A DNA stretch of 64,000 bases, from contig NC_134837.1 in assembly GCF_004210375.1 (NCBI RefSeq), positions 15,507,798 through 15,571,797 of the forward strand. Reading direction: 5' to 3'. The notes beneath the pieces are model-generated. The model saw only the letters and a list, made by a program, of their open reading frames with translations, was not told the origin of the DNA and made no database searches. The number at the start of each line of letters is the position of its first letter. Position 1 is the stretch's first letter. Position numbers and translations under genes: made by a program. Shown one piece after another: positions 13,210 to 56,420 of the stretch. The stretch is from Tachypleus tridentatus. Taxonomy: Eukaryota > Arthropoda > Merostomata > Xiphosura > Limulidae.

Positions 13210-13672
13210 TAACGCTTTGGAACAACATGGGACCTATTGGTCCATCTCAGCTATTCCATCTTCTAAATTAAAACTATTAATTAATAAATTGAAAAAAAAA
13301 TATTATAGCCAGCGCTTATCGTCCACGTACTTAGCAAGCTTTCTCTTAAGCCTACATTACGGCTTCCTCAACATCCGAAGGCAACTTATTCTAAAGGCCA
13401 ACCATCTTGTTAAAAAACTAAAACTGTCTTAATTGAATATGACTCTTACCCTGCAAATATTTACGTTTCCTAGTCCTACGATTCTCACTGTTAAGTATGA
13501 AAAGAGATAATTCATTGACACTATCAATTCACTTAACAATTTTAAATACCTTAGAGAGATGCCCCTAACTATTGCTTTCGCAAAATAAAACAACTTCAGA
13601 AAATTCAACCTCTCATATGACAACCCCTCTATCTAGACACCATTCTGGTAACCCTTTTTTAAAACCTTTCCA
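13210..13672 (-). pseudogene. CR1/L2-like LINE, C-terminal end of ORF2, decayed
   Basis: Read on the minus strand from about 13672 down, three frames in turn give the usual end of CR1/L2-type ORF2: KRVTRMV, then RLNFLKLFYFAKA, later VGL (stop) NKLPSDVEEAV, AKYVDDKRWL and finally DGIAEMDQ near 13245. Related proteins end with a WN-LP-VV segment and a K-LD segment of this kind (established for the families). Several stops and frameshifts make it a relic. Its 5' side is cut at 13672 by a family A SINE fragment. The clade assignment (CR1 or L2) is uncertain. Confidence 0.75.
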
Positions 13673-13674
13673 AT

Positions 13675-13785
13675 GACTCATCCGCCAACTCTTGAGATGC
13701 TCTTTTACCAACGAATAGTAGGATTGACAGTTACATTATAACGCCACCACGCCTGAAAGGGCGAACATGTTTGGTGTGATGTTGT
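13675..13785 (-). mobile_element. SINE family A fragment
   Basis: Central body only (ccaactcttgagatgctctt to gaacatgtttggtgtga). Both the tRNA head and the tail are missing. It adjoins the LINE relic at 13210-13672. Confidence 0.85.
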
Positions 13786-23070: not shown

Positions 23071-23770
23071 GTTGAGAAAATAATAGGCTTTCTTATTACG
23101 ACGTTATGAGTTTTAGAAATAAAATGGATGAGCTCACGGTTACAGTTGCAATGAAACAGTATTGTATCAGAGGGTGTGGAAGTTTTAAAAACTTCTGGCC
23201 CAATGGACAAAGTGCTAGAAAAATATATTTGACTTTCTTAAAAATCGACTTACCCGCTCCCAGTCTCATTAAACGCACACAAAACGTAGAATGGAACTTT
23301 TAGGATTTTTCCCTCCTACTATAATAATGATCTATTATATGTGTATATGTATCTTAGCAACCATCACCCAGAGATGGCTGTTTTGAGTACCGTAATTAAT
23401 GATATGGTAACTGGAAACTCTCTGACGGTGTGTATGATCTTGTTTTTTTAGGACATTTGCCCGAGGGAAAGGGGGAAGGGATAAAAACCTGAAAAAGGGC
23501 ACATTTTAACTTTTTTATAAACCTTTAACTTTGAATTTAAAGACACGAGTGGTTACTCAGTAAAGTGAGTCGATTATTATCTTCCACAAAGTAGGCAAAC
23601 AATTAGAATTTAATTATTGTCTTTATGTAATTTTTGTTTGTTTAAAGGGTATCTCGTTAAATATGAGGCCAGTTAACTGCTCAGTTTTGTCAAATTTACG
23701 CTAAAACCTTGAAATCATTGCATTGATTTAGATGTAGATTTGTGAGTTAAATAGATAACTATATAAGTGT
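23071..23770. other. Stretch with nothing recognised
   Basis: Opposed frames around 23007-23303 overlap each other and have no motif. Confidence 0.5.
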
Positions 23771-24046
23771 GACCCGGCATGGCCAGGTGGTAAAGGTCCT
23801 GGACTCGTAATCCGAGGGTTGCGAGTTAGAAACCTCGTCACACCAAACATGCTCGCCCTTTCAGCCGTAGAAGCGTTATATTGTGCGGTCGATCCCACTA
23901 TTCGTTGGTAAAAGAGCAGCTCAAGAGTTGGCGGTGGGTGTTGACGACTAGCTGCATTCTCTCTAGTCTTACACTGCTAAATTAGGAACGGCTAGTGCAG
24001 ATAGCTCTCGTGTAGCTTTGCGCAAAAATCAAAACAAACAAACAAA
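23771..24046 (+). mobile_element. SINE family A
   Basis: Full-length, head gacccggcatggccaggtgg, loop ctcgtaatcc, tail gcgcaaaaatcaaaacaaac with (caaa)n. Confidence 0.95.
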
Positions 24047-24317
24047 CAATATATGTGCAAATACTTTTGGTTTGATGTTTATAGATACACGTTTTGAATA
24101 TTCCGCAGTTCAAAATTTCAAGATTAATTTTCTACAACAAACTATGCGAAAAAAAAAACACACACACAAAATCTTTATTTACTTGTCAAGCAAAGTATAA
24201 CTTGTTGTCCCGGGCGTTGGGCAATTGGAATTCTCCACCCTGTATACATCATGGTAATTACTGGTTAGATTTGTAGAACAACGTTTATGAGTTATTTAAT
24301 AGAGGTATGCTTTTAAG

Positions 24318-25345
24318 AGAGGCGGTGGAGTGACTTTATACAGTGGATGAACTGCTGCATGGTAAGATTGAAGACAAGAAAGAATGAATTGAAGAGGTTC
24401 GGTTTATATGAATTACCACCAGAAGTTTCATGGGTAAAAAAAAAGTTTCTAATTGGCATTTATTACAGGGTATCCGATAATACAAATGGAGTCAATGAAC
24501 AAATTGTATAATGAAATACGAGCTGTTATTATTGATGATAATGCTGAAGCAAAAATAATGGAAGACTTATTTTGAACATACTAATTTAGACTATATGGAG
24601 TAAAGTATTAGAGGGATTGTTTGTTTCGTTTTTCGCGCAAAACTACACGAGAGCTATCTGCGCTAGCCATCCCTAACTTAGCAGTGTAAGACTAATATGA
24701 AGGTAGCTAGTTATCACCTTCTTCCACCAACGAATAGTGGGATTGACCGTCATATTGTAACGCCCCAACGGCTGAAAGGGCGAGAATATTTGGTGTAACG
24801 GGTATTTGAACTCGCGAACCTCAGATTACGAGTCACGTGTTTTATTTAGCCACCTAATCATGCTAAGTGTTTAGGGAAAGAGATTTCTGGAAGTGATTTA
24901 GGATAGTTTTCTGCATTACAATGTTATAAATGTGATTTTAGTTTTATTGTTCAACTACTAATGAGGGTATGGTTATAATAATGGACGTAGGGAAATGTTT
25001 GACGAAAGTGGTAATTGCATAATTAGATCTGACGCTTTACGTCCACAAGTAAGTACAACAAAATGAAATTTATTTCATAATTTTGGGAAAGGGCCTAAAA
25101 GAAGAAGAAACATTTACCAGAGAATGTCACATCGAACTGGCTTATTAAAAGAGAAGATGGCAGGTAAATATTGTAAGTTTGAATCTACAAATGAATTGAA
25201 AGATTTATAGTAATGTAAAGGTTGGAGATTTGGTTAGAAAAAATAAATTAGAAAATCCAAAACTTTACTAGAAATGGATGGATGACAATATTAAAACAAC
25301 GATTACTTTGCAATGTTTTTATGTAAGAAAAATTTCAGAACATGT
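24318..25345 (+). pseudogene. LINE endonuclease domain relic
   Basis: Motifs in order: RGGGVTLYSG (24318), WVKKKFLIGIYYRVSDNTNG (about 24436), EIRAVIIDDNAEAK, then after the SINE RFLEVI (stop) DSFLHYNVI and GNCIIRSDALRP (the S-D-H segment, here N-C-I). These match the APE-type endonuclease of CR1/L2 LINEs, which nicks target DNA. Near 25255-25290 LENPKLY and KWMDDNIKTTI match the segment after the endonuclease. Confidence 0.8.
24616..24868 (-). mobile_element. SINE family A inside LINE endonuclease
   Basis: Reverse copy from ttgtttgtttcg to ccacctaatcatgc. About 20 bp of the central body is missing after ttatcacc. Flanks gtattagaggga and gtgtttaggga may be a worn duplication. Confidence 0.9.
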
Positions 25346-25423
25346 AACATGATGTGAACGGCAAGGATTTTGATCAATACTATGATATGACTCAGATATT
25401 AAATGTTTTGTTCTTTAATGTTC

Positions 25424-25698
25424 GGTCCGGCATGGCCAGGTGGTTAAGACACTCGACTCGTAATCCGTGTGTCGCAAGTTCGAATCGCCATCACACCAAA
25501 CATGCTCGCCCTTTCAGCCGTAGGGGCCTTATATTGTGACGGTAAATCCCACTATTCGTTGGTAAAAGAGTAGCTCGAGAGTTGGCGGTGGGTGGTGATG
25601 ACTAGCTGCCGTCCCTCTAGTCTTACACTACTAAATTAAGGACGGCTAGAGCAGATCGCCCTCGTGTAGCTTTGCGCGAAATTCCAAAAACAAAACAA
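25424..25698 (+). mobile_element. SINE family A inside LINE
   Basis: Full-length, head ggtccggcatggccaggtgg, tail gcgcgaaattcc plus (aaac)n. Left duplication tctttaatgtt at 25412-25422. The right copy is split by the MITE: tcttta up to 25705 and tgtt from 25971. Confidence 0.95.
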
Positions 25699-25701
25699 TC
25701 T

Positions 25702-25970
25702 TTAACCTGTTGACTGCCAAGTATTTCAGCTGCTACGTCAACTCCGAACCAAGTTCAAAATACAACTCCAATGCTTCCTCATTTTGTAACTTTTTTGTGG
25801 CTCCATTTTGAATTGAAAGTGAAACAATTTGTAAGTAGTTCAAATGCATGTATGATTGTGACATCTAGCGTTGATGTTAGGTATTATTGAGAACGAATTA
25901 ATTCGTCCGTGGCACTGTGTTACCGATCAGCTTGGACGAGTTATCTCTTCTTCGGCACTGAACGGGTTAA
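25702..25970. mobile_element. MITE with TTAA duplication (piggyBac-like)
   Basis: About 269 bp between TTAA at 25702-25705 and TTAA at 25967-25970. Ends are imperfect inverted repeats: ttaacctgttgactgccaag on the left and ttaacccgttcagtgccgaa read inwards from the right. TTAA targets are typical of piggyBac elements; family assignment is inference because no transposase is encoded. Confidence 0.78.
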
Positions 25971-26325
25971 TGTTTTCACAAGAGAATACATTAATAATAT
26001 TTCTTGAGACTAATGGTACTATATGAGATATTGAAAGTGCCCAAGTCAAGTAGATACTAATTATTAAGTGTCAAATAAAAGTACTGATAAATTAAAAACA
26101 CACATAACACGAAAATCCGAGAAAATATTTTCCAGGGTTTAGAAAAAATAAAAACATCATATATCTGACTCTCTATCTTTCATTTTTTATGGACCAGTAG
26201 ACAATGAGTAAATAAATACCTGTGAACTAAAGATTTATTCGTGTTATTCCTATTTTCAAACGGAATAAAAACTGCACTGATTTTAGTGTTGTTGCTCTTG
26301 ATTTGTGGGAAAACTGTACAGAGTC

Positions 26326-26412
26326 TGTTACAACTAGCTTCACGAGGTTCGATTCCCCTCGGTGGACACAGCAGATATCCCATTGTGGCTTTTCTGTAAG
26401 AAAGCACACACA
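26326..26412 (+). mobile_element. SINE family B (B2), 5'-truncated, inside LINE
   Basis: Starts within the head (gaggttcgattcccctcgg), then tggacacagcagatatccca, ttgtggcttttctgtaag and cacacaca. Confidence 0.85.
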
Positions 26413-26579
26413 TTTTTTTCAGGATGCTGATTATTGTTTGTTTGTTTTTTGGTGGGGAGGGTGATATGTAAAGAGTGTAAAAGTGACTAAAGTATTTATA
26501 AAACGTATTACAAAGTTTGTTTATGCGCCCCAAAATATAGTAACTAAAGAAATCGCACTGGTTAGTTTGTAAAATAAGA

Positions 26580-27499
26580 CGGTTTATCGTATCGTAGGGT
26601 AGTTGGATCAGAGAAAGTAGTAGGTTGTTATTAGTATACTGAGATTAAATTTCACTCTTGTGATGCACCTCAAGGATCGGTACTTGTACCTTAATAGCAT
26701 AGATGTATGATATTAATAGGGACCACAATGTGTAAATTAACCAAGCTTCCTGATGACGTTAAGCTCTTGAGTTTTTCAATTGAATTGAGAATTCTGAGGA
26801 ATTACAGAATGGCTTGGATCAAGTGCTAAATTGGTTTGCTTAGGGTTTGAATTTCGCACAAAACTACACGAGGGCTATCTGCACTAGACGTCCCTAATTT
26901 AGCAGTGTAAGACTAGAGGATATGTAGCTAGTCATCACCACCCGCCACCAACTCTTGGGCTTCTCGTTTACTAACGAATAGTGGGATTGACCGTCACAGT
27001 ATAACACCCCACGGCTGAAAAGGTGAGCATGTTTGGTGGTACAGAGATTCGAAGCCACGACCATCAGGTTACTAGTCGAGTGCCTTAACCACCTGGCCGT
27101 GACGAGCCTTGATAAATTGGACAAATATTTGGCAAGCTGAATTTTTATTATAGTAAACATGAGGTAACGCAATTCGATCATCATAAATTGGATCACATGG
27201 GACTAAAACAGAGATCTTGACATTGTAATGGATAAGACACTCAAGTCACAGAAACGGTGGTCCAATGAGTAGCAGTACTAATAGTTTTTTATGGTGTGTT
27301 TATAGATATTTCGATATAAAAAAACAAATATCTCTGTAAAAGTAACTTGTTCGACTTTATTTGGAATGCTATATACACAGTTAGACTCTACTTCTTTAAG
27401 TTTGGAATTGACATGTTGGAAAACATTCAGGGAAGCCCTGTCAGAATGATTCATGAGATAAGAGAAATATCTGACATAGACAGGATAAGATATTTTAGT
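26580..27499 (+). pseudogene. LINE reverse transcriptase palm and thumb
   Basis: APQGSV at 26664-26681 (family: GVPQGSVLGP), KLPDDVKL at 26743-26766 where the catalytic F-A-D-D box stands (both Asp kept), ELQNGLDQVLNW ending at 26834, and after the SINE TNIWQAEFLL, RDLDIVMDKTLKSQKRWSNE, then IDMLENIQGSPVRMIHEIRE and FSFSS. Stops and frame changes separate these blocks. Confidence 0.88.
26835..27109 (-). mobile_element. SINE family A inside LINE reverse transcriptase
   Basis: Full-length reverse copy. Flanking duplication tgctaaattgg (26824-26834) and tgataaattgg (27110-27120), one mismatch. Skipping it restores the LINE reading frame, which supports the boundaries. Confidence 0.95.
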
Positions 27500-27510
27500 T
27501 TCTCTTCAAA

Positions 27511-27637
27511 CGTGTGTGTGTGTGTGATTTATTTTCGCACAGCCACATCGACCTATCTGCTGTGTCTTCCTAGGGGAATCGACCCCCTGATTTTAGCGTT
27601 GTAAATCAATAGACTTGCCGCTGTTCCTGAGGGGGAA
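27511..27637 (-). mobile_element. SINE family B (B2) inside LINE
   Basis: Reverse copy starting with (gt)n, then gcacagccacatcgacctat, gaatcgaccccctga and gccgctgttcctgag. Perfect 11-bp duplication ttctcttcaaa at 27500-27510 and 27638-27648. The LINE frame continues after it (KRGHVIDVYKNYRN). Confidence 0.97.
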
Positions 27638-27814
27638 TTCTCTTCAAAAAGAGGTCACGTTATTGACGTTTACAAGAATTATCGGAACATCGAAATAATC
27701 GAGGCCTCTGGTTGATGAATGTTATATTTCGAAAATAAAAGAGCGAAAAAATCAAAGCTTAATATACGAAGAAGACAAACTAAGTTTCTGTAAAAGTCAG
27801 TTTCATTTCCTTAA

Positions 27815-28090
27815 CGTGTTGATTTACCTGTAGAATGAGTTCCATTGGAAGAAATGGAAACGTGTTGATTTACCTGTAGAATGAGTTCCATTGGAAGAAA
27901 TGGAAACGAGTTGATTTACCTGTAGAATGAGTTCCATTGGAAGAAATGGAAACGTGTTGATTTACCTGTGGAATGAGTTCCATTGGAAGAAATGGAAACG
28001 TGTTGATTTACCTGTAGAATGAGTTCCATTGGAAGAAATGGAAACGTGTGGATTTACCTGTAGAATAAGTTCCATTGGAAGAAATGGAAA
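27815..28090 (+). repeat. 46-bp minisatellite, 6 copies, within LINE ORF2 end
   Basis: Unit starts cgtgttgatttacctgtaga and ends gaagaaatggaaa. Copies begin at 27815, 27861, 27907, 27953, 27999 and 28045 with one or two substitutions. Across two frames a unit encodes a WNE...PLEEMET stretch, which resembles the WN-LP-EVV segment expected here near the end of a CR1/L2 ORF2. Confidence 0.93.
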
Positions 28091-28250
28091 CGAGTGCTTT
28101 AACGAAGAAGTGTAAGAGGTAAATCGATTATCTCGTGAAGAAATGTTTTGTTTTAGTTCTTCAAAGGTCGGTACGCAAGGGCAACTTTAATGGACTAAAT
28201 GGTTCATTTGTCGTACGTATGATGTTGGACAGCCTTGAAGAACCAAATGG

Positions 28251-29483
28251 GTTGTTGTTAACTAAACCAGTATATTGGCATCATAGTTTCTCTTTATCAT
28301 TTTGATGTTTGTTACAGTTTATTAATTCTTGAGTCTTGTGCTATAACTTATAGTACTAAGTATTTCATCATTTTTATGCACTAATTAACGTAAAATACCC
28401 CATCTCTGTCGTGGAGTTCAAAGCCCTCACTTCACAAGATTCACAATGTATCGATCAGGCTCCTTCATTATTCTCAGTTACTTTTATAGCTATCTGAAGG
28501 GGGAAGAAACACATACCGTTAAACAAATCCTGTTAAAATACTCGCTCCCAGAACCTGAGCATGTTGCCGTGTTTGGTCTCTCTAGTTTGTAAATGGGGTC
28601 CAAAATCTGCTGCCGGGTTGAGATCCATCAACCCTGGAAACCTACTCGTAGACCCTCATCAGGTCTGGATGACCTTCCGGATACGCTATAAAGACAGGGA
28701 TAATTCCAAACCACCTCGATCCCATCTATGAAGTTTGGTCCCGCAAGCTCTAACACTGTGAGAGGATTTTCCAGAATAACAAAGAAATTTAACACAGAAG
28801 GTAAATTGAAATAGAACATCAAACTCTTGTATAGTTTTATGAGGTTAGTGACTTTTAAACTTAACTTAGAATCATGTAACAGTTTTTATTCATTGCTTTC
28901 TCTTCATATTTTTCTGCCATAGGTCATATAAATATATATACACACAAATATATGCTCTAATCACTCGCATATACGTATGTTTGATTCACCTATGCGCAAT
29001 ATATTTATAAACTATATTTTCCAACCTAGTTCACCTTGAAGCTGTTACCATGGTTAGAGCTCAGTGTGTTTGATTTTTGTGTCACCGCCGTAAGAGCAAG
29101 TCATTGGCCTCTTTCTATATATACACATCATGTTGTGTTGAACTTGTACCACTACTTAGGTTCTCACTCACACACGAAAGCGTCATAACACCTACTAAAA
29201 CATAGTAAGACGAAGGACTTGAGGTACCAGTGCTGCAAACCTGTTTCTATAATGGTTATCAGTGGTTAGTCTTCAATACACAACTTTGAATATGTGTCTC
29301 CACGTGTATACACAATGAATAGTTTTTAAAACGTTGTGAACGTATTGATGATTACGTTATCTCTAACGGCTTTATTTATGGTGAGGCACTATTTTTCATT
29401 TTATGATTCGTGTGTTTTTAATAAAATTATATCAAAGAATTTAAATACATATATAGGTACATCAACACTCGCATACCCGATAA
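28251..29483. other. Stretch with a GC-richer block
   Basis: 28540-28790 is visibly richer in G+C than its surroundings, with a short inverted pair (agaccctcatcaggtct). Its 64-codon minus frame (28822-28628) matches nothing I know. The remainder holds short TA and CA runs near 28925-28960 only. Confidence 0.45.
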
Positions 29484-51631: not shown

Positions 51632-51963
51632 AGCCCGACATGGCCAGGTAGATTAAGACGTTCGACTCGTAATCCGAGGATGGCGAGTTTGAATCCAGGT
51701 TGCACCAAACATGCTCGCATTTTCAGCCGTGGGGGCATTATAATGTGACGGTTAATCCCACTATTCGTTGGTAAAAGAGTAGCCCAAGAGTTGGTGGTGG
51801 GTGGTGATGACTAGTAATCCCACTATTCGTTGGTAAAAGAGTAGCCCAAGAGTTGGCGGTGGGTGGTGATGACTAGCTGCCTTCCCTCTAGTCTTACATT
51901 GCTAAATTAGGGACGGCTAGCACAGATAGCCCTCGAGTAAGTTTGTGCGATATTCAAAAAAAC
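51632..51963 (+). mobile_element. SINE family A with a 62-bp internal duplication
   Basis: Head agcccgacatggccaggtag, loop ctcgtaatccg. 51753-51814 is repeated as 51815-51876 with one mismatch (ggtggtg versus ggcggtg). Otherwise full-length with tail gtgcgatattc. Confidence 0.96.
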
Positions 51964-53740: not shown

Positions 53741-53787
53741 GTGATTCTTCTCCAGGTACTTTCTGATCTTTCTGGCACATTCACTTT

Positions 53788-56420
53788 CATCTTATCACGC
53801 ATGTCAGTAAAGCCAATCTTATACAAATCAACATCATCTTATCACGCATGTCAGTAAAGCCAATCTTATACAAATCAACATCATCTTATCACGCATGTCA
53901 GTAAAGCCAATCTTATACAAATCAACATCATCTTATCACGCATGTCAGTAAAGCCAATCTTATACAAATCAACATCATCTTATCACGCATGTCAGTAAAG
54001 CCAATCTTATACAAATCAACATCATCTTATCACGCATGTCAGTAAAGCCAATCTTATATAAATCAACATCATCTTATCACGCATGTCAGTAAAGCCAATC
54101 TTATACAAATCAACATCATCTTATCACGCATGTCAGTAAAGCCAATCTTATACAAATCAACATCATCTTATCACGCATGTCAGTAAAGCTAATCTTATAC
54201 AAATCAACATCATCTTATCACGCTTGTCAGTAAAGCCAATCTTATACAAATCAACATCATCTTATCACGCATGTCAGTAAAGCCAATCTTATACAAATCA
54301 ACATCATCTTATCACGCATGTCAGTAAAGCCAATCTTATACAAATCAACATCATCTTATCACGCATGTCAGTAAAGCCAATCTTATACAAATCAACATCA
54401 TCTTATCACGCATGTCAGTAAAGCCAATCTTATACAAATCAACATCATCTTATCACGCATGTCAGTAAAGCCAATCTTATACAAATCAACATCATCTTAT
54501 CACGCATGTCAGTAAAGCCAATCTTATACAAATCAACATCATCTTATCACGCATGTCAGTAAAGCCAATCTTATACAAATCAACATCATCTTATCACGCT
54601 TGTCAGTAAAGCCAATCTTATACAAATCAACATCATCTTATCACGCATGTCAGTAAAGCCAATCTTATACAAATCAACATCATCTTATCACGCATGTCAG
54701 TAAAGCCAATCTTATACAAATCAACATCATCTTATCACGCATGTCAGTAAAGCCAATCTTATACAAATCAACATCATCTTATCACGCTTGTCAGTAAAGC
54801 CAATCTTATATAAATCAACATCATCTTATCACGCATGTCAGTAAAGCTAATCTTATAAAATCAACATCATCTTATCACGCTTGTCAGTAAAGCCAATCTT
54901 ATACAAATCAACATCATCTTATCACGCATGTCAGTAAAGCCAATCTTATACAAATCAACATCATCTTATCACGCATGTCAGTAAAGCCAATCTTATACAA
55001 ATCAACATCATCTTATCACGCATGTCAGTAAAGCTAATCTTATACAAATCAACATCATCTTATCACGCTTGTCAGTAAAGCCAATCTTATACAAATCAAC
55101 ATCATCTTATCACGCATGTCAGTAAAGCCAATCTTATACAAATCAACATCATCTTATCACGCATGTCAGTAAAGCCAATCTTATACAAATCAACATCATC
55201 TTATCACGCATGTCAGTAAAGCCAATCTTATACAAATCAACATCATCTTATCACGCATGTCAGTAAAGCCAATCTTATACAAATCAACATCATCTTATCA
55301 CGCTTGTCAGTAAAGCCAATCTTATATAAATCAACATCATCTTATCACGCATGTCAGTAAAGCTAATCTTATATAAATCAACATCATCTTATCACGCTTG
55401 TCAGTAAAGCCAATCTTATACAAATCAACATCATCTTATCACGCATGTCAGTAAAGCCAATCTTATACAAATCAACATCATCTTATCACGCATGTCAGTA
55501 AAGCCAATCTTATACAAATCAACATCATCTTATCACGCTTGTCAGTAAAGCCAATCTTATACAAATCAACATCATCTTATCACGCATGTCAGTAAAGCCA
55601 ATCTTATACAAATCAACATCATCTTATCACGCATGTCAGTAAAGCCAATCTTATACAAATCAACATCATCTTATCACGCATGTCAGTAAAGCCAATCTTA
55701 TACAAATCAACATCATCTTATCACGCATGTCAGTAAAGCCAATCTTATACAAATCAACATCATCTTATCGCGCATGTCAGTAAAGCCAATCTTATACAAA
55801 TCAACATCATCTTATCACGCTTGTCAGTAAAGCCAATCTTATACAAATCAACATCATCTTATCGCGCATGTCAGTAAAGCCAATCTTATACAAATCAACA
55901 TCATCTTATCACGCTTGTCAGTAAAGCCAATCTTATACAAATCAACATCATCTTATCACGCTTGTCAGTAAAGCCAATCTTATACAAATCAACATCATCT
56001 TATCACGCATGTCAGTAAAGCCAATCTTATACAAATCAACATCATCTTATCACGCATGTCAGTAAAGCCAATCTTATACAAATCAACATCATCTTATCAC
56101 GCTTGTCAGTAAAGCCAATCTTATACAAATCAACATCATCTTATCACGCTTGTCAGTAAAGCCAATCTTATACAAATCAACATCATCTTATCACGCATGT
56201 CAGTAAAGCCAATCTTATACAAATCAACATCATCTTATCACGCATGTCAGTAAAGCCAATCTTATACAAATCAACATCATCTTATCACGCTTGTCAGTAA
56301 AGCCAATCTTATACAAATCAACATCATCTTATCACGCATGTCAGTAAAGCTAATCTTATACAAATCAACATCATCTTATCACGCATGTCAGTAAAGCCAA
56401 TCTTATACAAATCAACACTC
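53788..56420. repeat. 47-bp satellite array, about 56 copies
   Basis: Unit catcttatcacgcatgtcag, taaagccaatcttatacaaa, tcaacat. Units are nearly identical, differing mainly at cgcatg/cgcttg, gcc/gct, and aca/ata, plus rare cacgc/cgcgc. The ordered variant pair (cttg with tataaat, then catg with gctaat) recurs 516 bp apart (54781 and 55297), about 11 units, so larger blocks were copied. No spacers, hence not CRISPR. Confidence 0.98.

Follow-up and report, generated by a model that had tools for sequence, protein, structure and literature searches.

The 64,000-nucleotide window analysed here (contig NC_134837.1 of Tachypleus tridentatus, in a genome of 2.17 Gb on 205 contigs) holds the decayed remains of a long interspersed nuclear element (LINE), lying in pieces among short interspersed nuclear elements (SINEs), a miniature inverted-repeat transposable element (MITE), a dispersed repeat and a tandem array. 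The original prediction, made from the sequence alone, had described a single LINE with its motifs in order on the plus strand between positions 24265 and 28250, split by five SINEs and one MITE. All six of these insertions were found in that interval. For the LINE itself, we built a DNA profile from 19 loci of the same genome (anchor locus L080, model length 2896), masking tandem arrays in four of the 19. The window was then divided at the insertions, and the eight resulting pieces were searched separately with nothing joined. Seven of the eight pieces match the profile and yield eight blocks that fit one profile, all on the plus strand and in a single order, running from model position 131 to 2775.

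23077 to 23156, plus strand: LINE block 0, start of the endonuclease region, marginal (model 131 to 216, 1.6 bits; 3.1 bits with a profile anchored on locus L073)
24283 to 24528, plus strand: LINE block 1, endonuclease region (model 281 to 528, 8.5 bits)
24873 to 25041, plus strand: LINE block 2, end of the endonuclease region (model 598 to 781, 15.7 bits)
25238 to 25415, plus strand: LINE block 3, linker, marginal (model 1098 to 1275, 0.4 bits)
26118 to 26299, plus strand: LINE block 4, reverse transcriptase (RT) region (model 1415 to 1599, 5.1 bits)
26561 to 26821, plus strand: LINE block 5, RT core (model 1858 to 2130, 18.9 bits)
27123 to 27506, plus strand: LINE block 6, C-terminal part of the RT region and the best preserved block (model 2146 to 2559, 57.8 bits)
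27794 to 27848, plus strand: LINE block 7, C-terminal codons, marginal, holding most of the first unit of a 46-bp array (model 2721 to 2775, 0.4 bits)

A single dismembered LINE copy

As a chance control, we searched 800 dinucleotide-shuffled pieces with the L080-anchored profile. Their best score was -0.8 bits, so that none of the 800 reached the weakest LINE block. Five of the eight blocks score at least 5 bits and three are marginal; the marginal blocks were counted because their place and strand are correct. Minus-strand matches within the pieces scored -2.8 bits or lower. A search of the whole window with the same profile returned six plus-strand matches in the same order, with expectation values (E) of 2.8e-21, 5.9e-15, 2.8e-6, 6.2e-4, 0.082 and 0.13. 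The sole other strong match in that search was a minus-strand fragment of a LINE 3' part at 13676 to 13238. We also looked for segments that align to different LINE families or in conflicting order, and neither was seen.

The distances between neighbouring blocks were compared by simple arithmetic, setting the number of non-insertion bases between two blocks against the number expected from the model. The agreement is exact across SINE D (15 bases versus 15), and the distances are similar across SINE B plus the MITE (150 versus 139) and across SINE E (149 versus 161); across SINE A we count approximately 101 bases versus 69. Collinear blocks on one strand therefore indicate a single LINE copy that has been cut up. 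We consider it very probable that this is one near-full-length, long-dead copy reaching from the endonuclease to the C-terminus of the RT, later split by independent insertions and by an array derived from itself.

This copy is hard to see by other means. Stop codons and frameshifts run all through it, the longest plus-strand stop-to-stop frame in 24265 to 28250 is 94 amino acids, and a Pfam search with eight window fragments returned no LINE domain and one unrelated match below threshold. The prediction that open reading frame (ORF) length would miss the element is therefore borne out, and extends to Pfam.

The LINE family in the genome

DNA searches of the genome with 26640 to 26840, and with the endonuclease fragment 24396 to 24575, matched only the queries themselves. 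A first relative, L003, was found through a 60-residue fragment (27323 to 27502) at 32% identity. Searching with a fragment of L003 gave 150 scored matches among 6913 first-look candidates, and searching with the endonuclease fragment of L073 gave 150 scored matches among 1901. Eighteen loci (L065 to L082) were taken from these two match lists, chosen partly for long open frames. A separate set of 151 ORFs of at least 150 amino acids from L003 to L063, mostly RVT_1 or Exo_endo_phos_2 loci, gave nothing that matched the window convincingly as a LINE.

Seven fragments from relatives were submitted to Pfam. The endonuclease domain PF14529 lies above the cut-off in two of them, L077 (E 5.5e-10) and L081 (E 3.7e-8), and RVT_1 is weak in L066 (E 0.0024, below the cut-off). 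The endonuclease domain of the window copy was recognised only via the DNA profile, its own fragments having no Pfam match. An earlier profile, anchored on L073 and controlled with 480 shuffled pieces (best score -5.1), matched five of the eight pieces. Pieces 3, 6 and 7 escaped it, one reason being that L073 lacks approximately 470 model bases between its endonuclease and RT (969 to 1437) that are present in L077, L079 and L080, and it was replaced by the L080-anchored profile.

We take the CR1/L2-like name given to this family to be plausible from its motifs, and the C-terminal motifs of the relatives are presumably CR1-like. In the CR1/L2 clade the 3' end carries a short tandem repeat, not poly-A. 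A second fragment of the same family lies elsewhere in the window at 13238 to 13676 on the minus strand; it comprises the 3' part only and is better preserved (267 bits). This fragment, taken as 13238 to 13682, abuts a SINE1 fragment at 13682 to 13782.

Insertions that split the LINE

Two SINE families, SINE1 and SINE2, account for the SINE copies considered here. In the 64 kb there are 37 matches to SINE1 (E up to 0.001) and 21 matches to SINE2 (E up to 0.01), fragments included in both cases, and five of the SINE2 matches lie within SINE1 copies. Divergences are given as Kimura two-parameter (K2P) distances from the window consensus for SINE1 copies, and relative to the SINE2 consensus for SINE2 copies. 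The features that interrupt the LINE or lie next to its breaks are as follows.

23314 to 23633, strand not assigned, ends approximate: unnamed dispersed repeat in the gap that separates LINE block 0 from block 1, recognised from its genomic copies
23774 to 24037, plus strand: SINE F (SINE1), upstream of the previously predicted LINE start (279.5 bits; K2P 11.1%)
24621 to 24863, minus strand: SINE A (SINE1; 211.6 bits; K2P 17.1%)
25412 to 25422, plus strand: 5' target-site copy of SINE B (11 of 11 bases when the MITE is bypassed)
25423 to 25698, plus strand: SINE B (SINE1; profile match 25427 to 25691, 296.3 bits; K2P 8.8%)
25706 to 25966, strand not assigned: MITE of 261 bp inside the 3' target-site copy of SINE B (TTAA at 25702 to 25705 and at 25967 to 25970)
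26305 to 26403, plus strand: SINE C (SINE2), 5' boundary ambiguous from 26303 to 26340 (57.6 bits; divergence 10.8%)
26835 to 27109, minus strand: SINE D (SINE1; profile match 26844 to 27103, 269.8 bits; K2P 13.1%)
27511 to 27637, minus strand: SINE E (SINE2; profile match 27528 to 27629, 85.7 bits; divergence 16.0%)
27813 to 28092, plus strand: 46-bp tandem array of 6.1 copies, detected by Tandem Repeats Finder (TRF)

Target-site duplications (TSDs) were judged against 1473 random flank pairs. SINE D is flanked by a duplication with 10 of 11 matching bases (26824 to 26834 and 27110 to 27120; equalled by 1.8% of random pairs) and SINE E by one with 11 of 11 (27500 to 27510 and 27638 to 27648; 0.4%), as had been predicted for the insertions at 26835 and 27511. 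The TSD of SINE F is weak, with 11 of 13 bases matching between 23757 to 23769 and 24045 to 24057 (3.2%). The left edge of SINE C is soft: the part from 26340 on scores 49.2 bits, which leaves 8.4 of the total of 57.6 bits to the bases before 26340, and the LINE profile likewise aligns across that region. SINEs A and C, for neither of which a TSD was found, would likewise have inserted into the LINE. ARAGORN, run with bacterial settings, reported no tRNAs, and Rfam gave no matches at the gathering score; from their consensus, the SINEs may be of tRNA origin.

It had also been claimed that skipping the SINEs at 26835 and 27511 rejoins LINE coding sequence. Past SINE D this holds fully, since the LINE resumes in exact register and its best block follows immediately. 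The rejoining across SINE E is weaker. Residual LINE likeness was tested against 12 relatives with 300 single-base shuffles per stretch, and the stretch 27641 to 27858 beats all 300 (sum 2234; shuffle mean 1926, standard deviation 82). Its first part, 27641 to 27800, stays at shuffle level when taken alone, and by eye it resembles the C-terminal codons of the relatives in shifting frames.

Order of events

The MITE provides one firmly ordered pair of events. The two target copies of SINE B match at 11 of 11 bases when 25412 to 25422 is compared with 25699 to 25705 joined to 25971 to 25974, and only 0.4% of random pairs are as good. When the MITE is kept and SINE B is compared with its immediate right flank, seven bases match, and 11.7% of random pairs are as good. 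The left TTAA of the MITE (25702 to 25705) belongs to the SINE B 3' target copy. Given that the MITE lies within this target copy, it is younger than SINE B, and the order LINE, then SINE B, then MITE is firm.

The MITE is one member of a family in this genome, whose 39 other scored copies (90-92% identity; 1382 first-look candidates) all start at query base 1 to 3 and end at 269 to 276, the two TTAAs being query bases 3 to 6 and 268 to 271, and 10 of the first 13 bases match in its terminal inverted repeat.

The readable order of events proposed in the original prediction therefore stands, beyond the LINE itself, for SINE B before the MITE, and the order of the remaining insertions would follow from divergence. 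For the SINE1 copies the divergences suggest, as no more than an estimate, from old to young, A (17.1%), D (13.1%), F (11.1%) and B (8.8%). The values for SINEs B and E may be too low because both copies seeded their profiles.

A 46-bp tandem array derived from the LINE

The list of insertions in the original prediction omits the array at 27813 to 28092. The first unit of this array opens with AACGTGT, and AACGAGT follows the last unit, in register. When 27790 to 27870 was aligned with the 12 relatives the sum was 1293, versus a shuffle mean of 1042 (standard deviation 50, maximum 1210), and none of 300 shuffles was as good. The whole-window search also places this stretch at model 2721 to 2780, weakly (0.8 bits, E 0.13). 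The array site is covered in a single alignment by 15 of the 19 relatives, none of which has an array listed there by TRF. Judged from these alignments, the 46-bp unit derives from the LINE's own C-terminal coding sequence. We propose that 46 bp of this sequence, with the near-identical 7-mers AACGTGT and AACGAGT at its borders, would have been multiplied sixfold, slippage between the two short repeats being the most likely route. Because 46 is not divisible by three, the array does not imply a coding role.

Arrays of at least three units occur inside the LINE in four of the 19 relatives: L067 (63 bp), L070 (38 bp), L071 (44 bp) and L076 (27 and 37 bp). In L071 (44 bp, 368 to 1086) and L076 (37 bp, 1914 to 2364) the same LINE site has been amplified with different periods. 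The relatives were, however, chosen partly for long open frames, and such a choice favours arrays. Among 10 evenly spaced LINE copies from the genome, all of which match the model and nine of which span the L071/L076 site, none has an array in the approximately 520 bp around it. We therefore do not claim a hotspot at this site, and we regard it as improbable that LINE corpses repeatedly become minisatellites at preferred sites in this genome.

Altogether the window is repeat-rich, with 19 tandem arrays covering 9327 of its 64,000 bases (28 TRF rows merged). The longest lies at 53787 to 56417 (47 bp, 56 copies, 98% matches), and the GC skew in 54001 to 56000 is strong, at -0.495. A SINE1 copy at 51635 to 51961 has an internal 62-bp tandem duplication, and is a second mobile-element-born tandem repeat in the window.

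Alternative readings and the extent of the element

Several observations weigh against the single-copy reading. The spacing is too small by approximately 100 to 120 model bases within piece 2 and around SINE C. The three marginal blocks (0.4, 0.4 and 1.6 bits) lie barely above the shuffle maximum; in the whole-window search two of them have E values of 0.082 and 0.13, and the third does not appear among the matches. Five of the plus-strand blocks are only 59-71% identical to the consensus of the first profile, and the block boundaries are soft because identity is this low. The flanks of SINE A have no detectable TSD, nor do those of SINE C when its left edge is taken at 26303. Taken alone, 27641 to 27800 cannot be told from shuffles in its LINE likeness (74 of 300 score as well), and no profile match is found downstream of the 46-bp array. 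We considered whether a single element might be mimicked by two or more separate fragments of this LINE family that inserted next to one another. The family is abundant, with its 6913 first-look candidates, and a further fragment lies on the minus strand at 13238 to 13676. However, the blocks hold one order and one strand, the spacing across SINE D, across SINE B plus the MITE and across SINE E fits a single copy, and the matches of the whole-window search overlap on the model by 7 bases only, inside the SINE D target duplication. Side-by-side fragments are therefore a very improbable source of this arrangement. An unrelated origin of the 46-bp array, as a minisatellite that entered or formed next to the LINE, is nearly as hard to credit. 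Its first unit has a low profile score (0.4 bits in the pieces and 0.8 bits, E 0.13, in the whole window) and the 160 bases preceding it are not LINE-like by themselves, but the alignment of 27790 to 27870 with 12 relatives outdoes every shuffle and the array starts near the expected model position (149 bases versus 161).

The extent of the single copy is less sharply defined than its unity. The LINE probably starts near 23077, approximately 1.2 kb upstream of the start at 24265 in the original prediction. The block at 23077 to 23156 is only 80 bp long, scores 1.6 bits (E 0.0046 in the pieces or 0.082 in the whole window) and is separated by 1.1 kb of other sequence from the next block, so that it might be a chance match and the LINE a 5'-truncated copy starting at approximately 24.28 kb. 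Yet this block outscores all 800 and all 480 shuffled pieces of the two profile controls, its strand and order are correct, and its translation resembles by eye the endonuclease start of L073 and L076. We therefore think it likely that the block is a real part of the LINE, and a chance match correspondingly doubtful. If the block is real, SINE F and the dispersed repeat, two further interruptions, also split the LINE. The dispersed repeat has 39 other scored copies (67-79% identity over parts) among 249 first-look candidates. At the other end, 28080 to 28300 is weakly LINE-like (eight of 300 shuffles as good), and a search with 28093 to 28800 returned itself and three matches of approximately 50 to 60 bases; the 3' end is not fixed as a consequence.

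With the single copy as the preferred reading, the LINE would have inserted on the plus strand from approximately 23.08 to approximately 27.85 kb, perhaps to 28.3 kb, and would then have been split by SINE1 copies F, A, B and D, SINE2 copies C and E, the dispersed repeat and the TTAA-type MITE. The observation of a split LINE is confirmed and its interpretation is supported. None of these features would be expected to have a function.

Comparison with known systems

At 59-71% identity to its family consensus and with six interruptions or more (eight should the upstream block be real), this LINE goes unseen by ORF length and by Pfam, but a profile made from the genome's own copies can recover it. 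REANNOTATE and TinT are described as defragmenting old elements and ordering nested insertions (PMC2672092, PMC3014933). Our approach follows the same principle, with a family profile that had to come from the genome's own sequence. Compared with CR1/L2-group LINEs, the putative clade, the genome relatives carry an endonuclease and a weak RVT_1, whereas the window copy is full of stops and frameshifts. The MITE is like other TTAA-target MITEs in being flanked by TTAA, in its short terminal inverted repeats and in its many copies, and we presume a likeness to piggyBac-like elements. Its position within a SINE target duplication provides one strictly ordered event pair, and the 46-bp array is a case of dead coding sequence giving rise to a minisatellite.

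Both nesting and tandem arrays that arise from transposons are already well known, and the case is clear but ordinary; none of these observations alone raises a new question. In the human genome, 7,276 tandem repeats derived from transposable elements (TEs) have been counted, and 300 of these have direct repeats of 5-20 bp, in the majority 7 bp, at their flanks (Ahmed and Liang 2012, PMC3389668). The same study describes array initiation between such short direct repeats, mostly of 7 bp, and TE regions as hotspots. The 46-bp array shares 7-bp flanking repeats with these human TE-derived tandem repeats, and differs in that its host is another genome and a decayed LINE.

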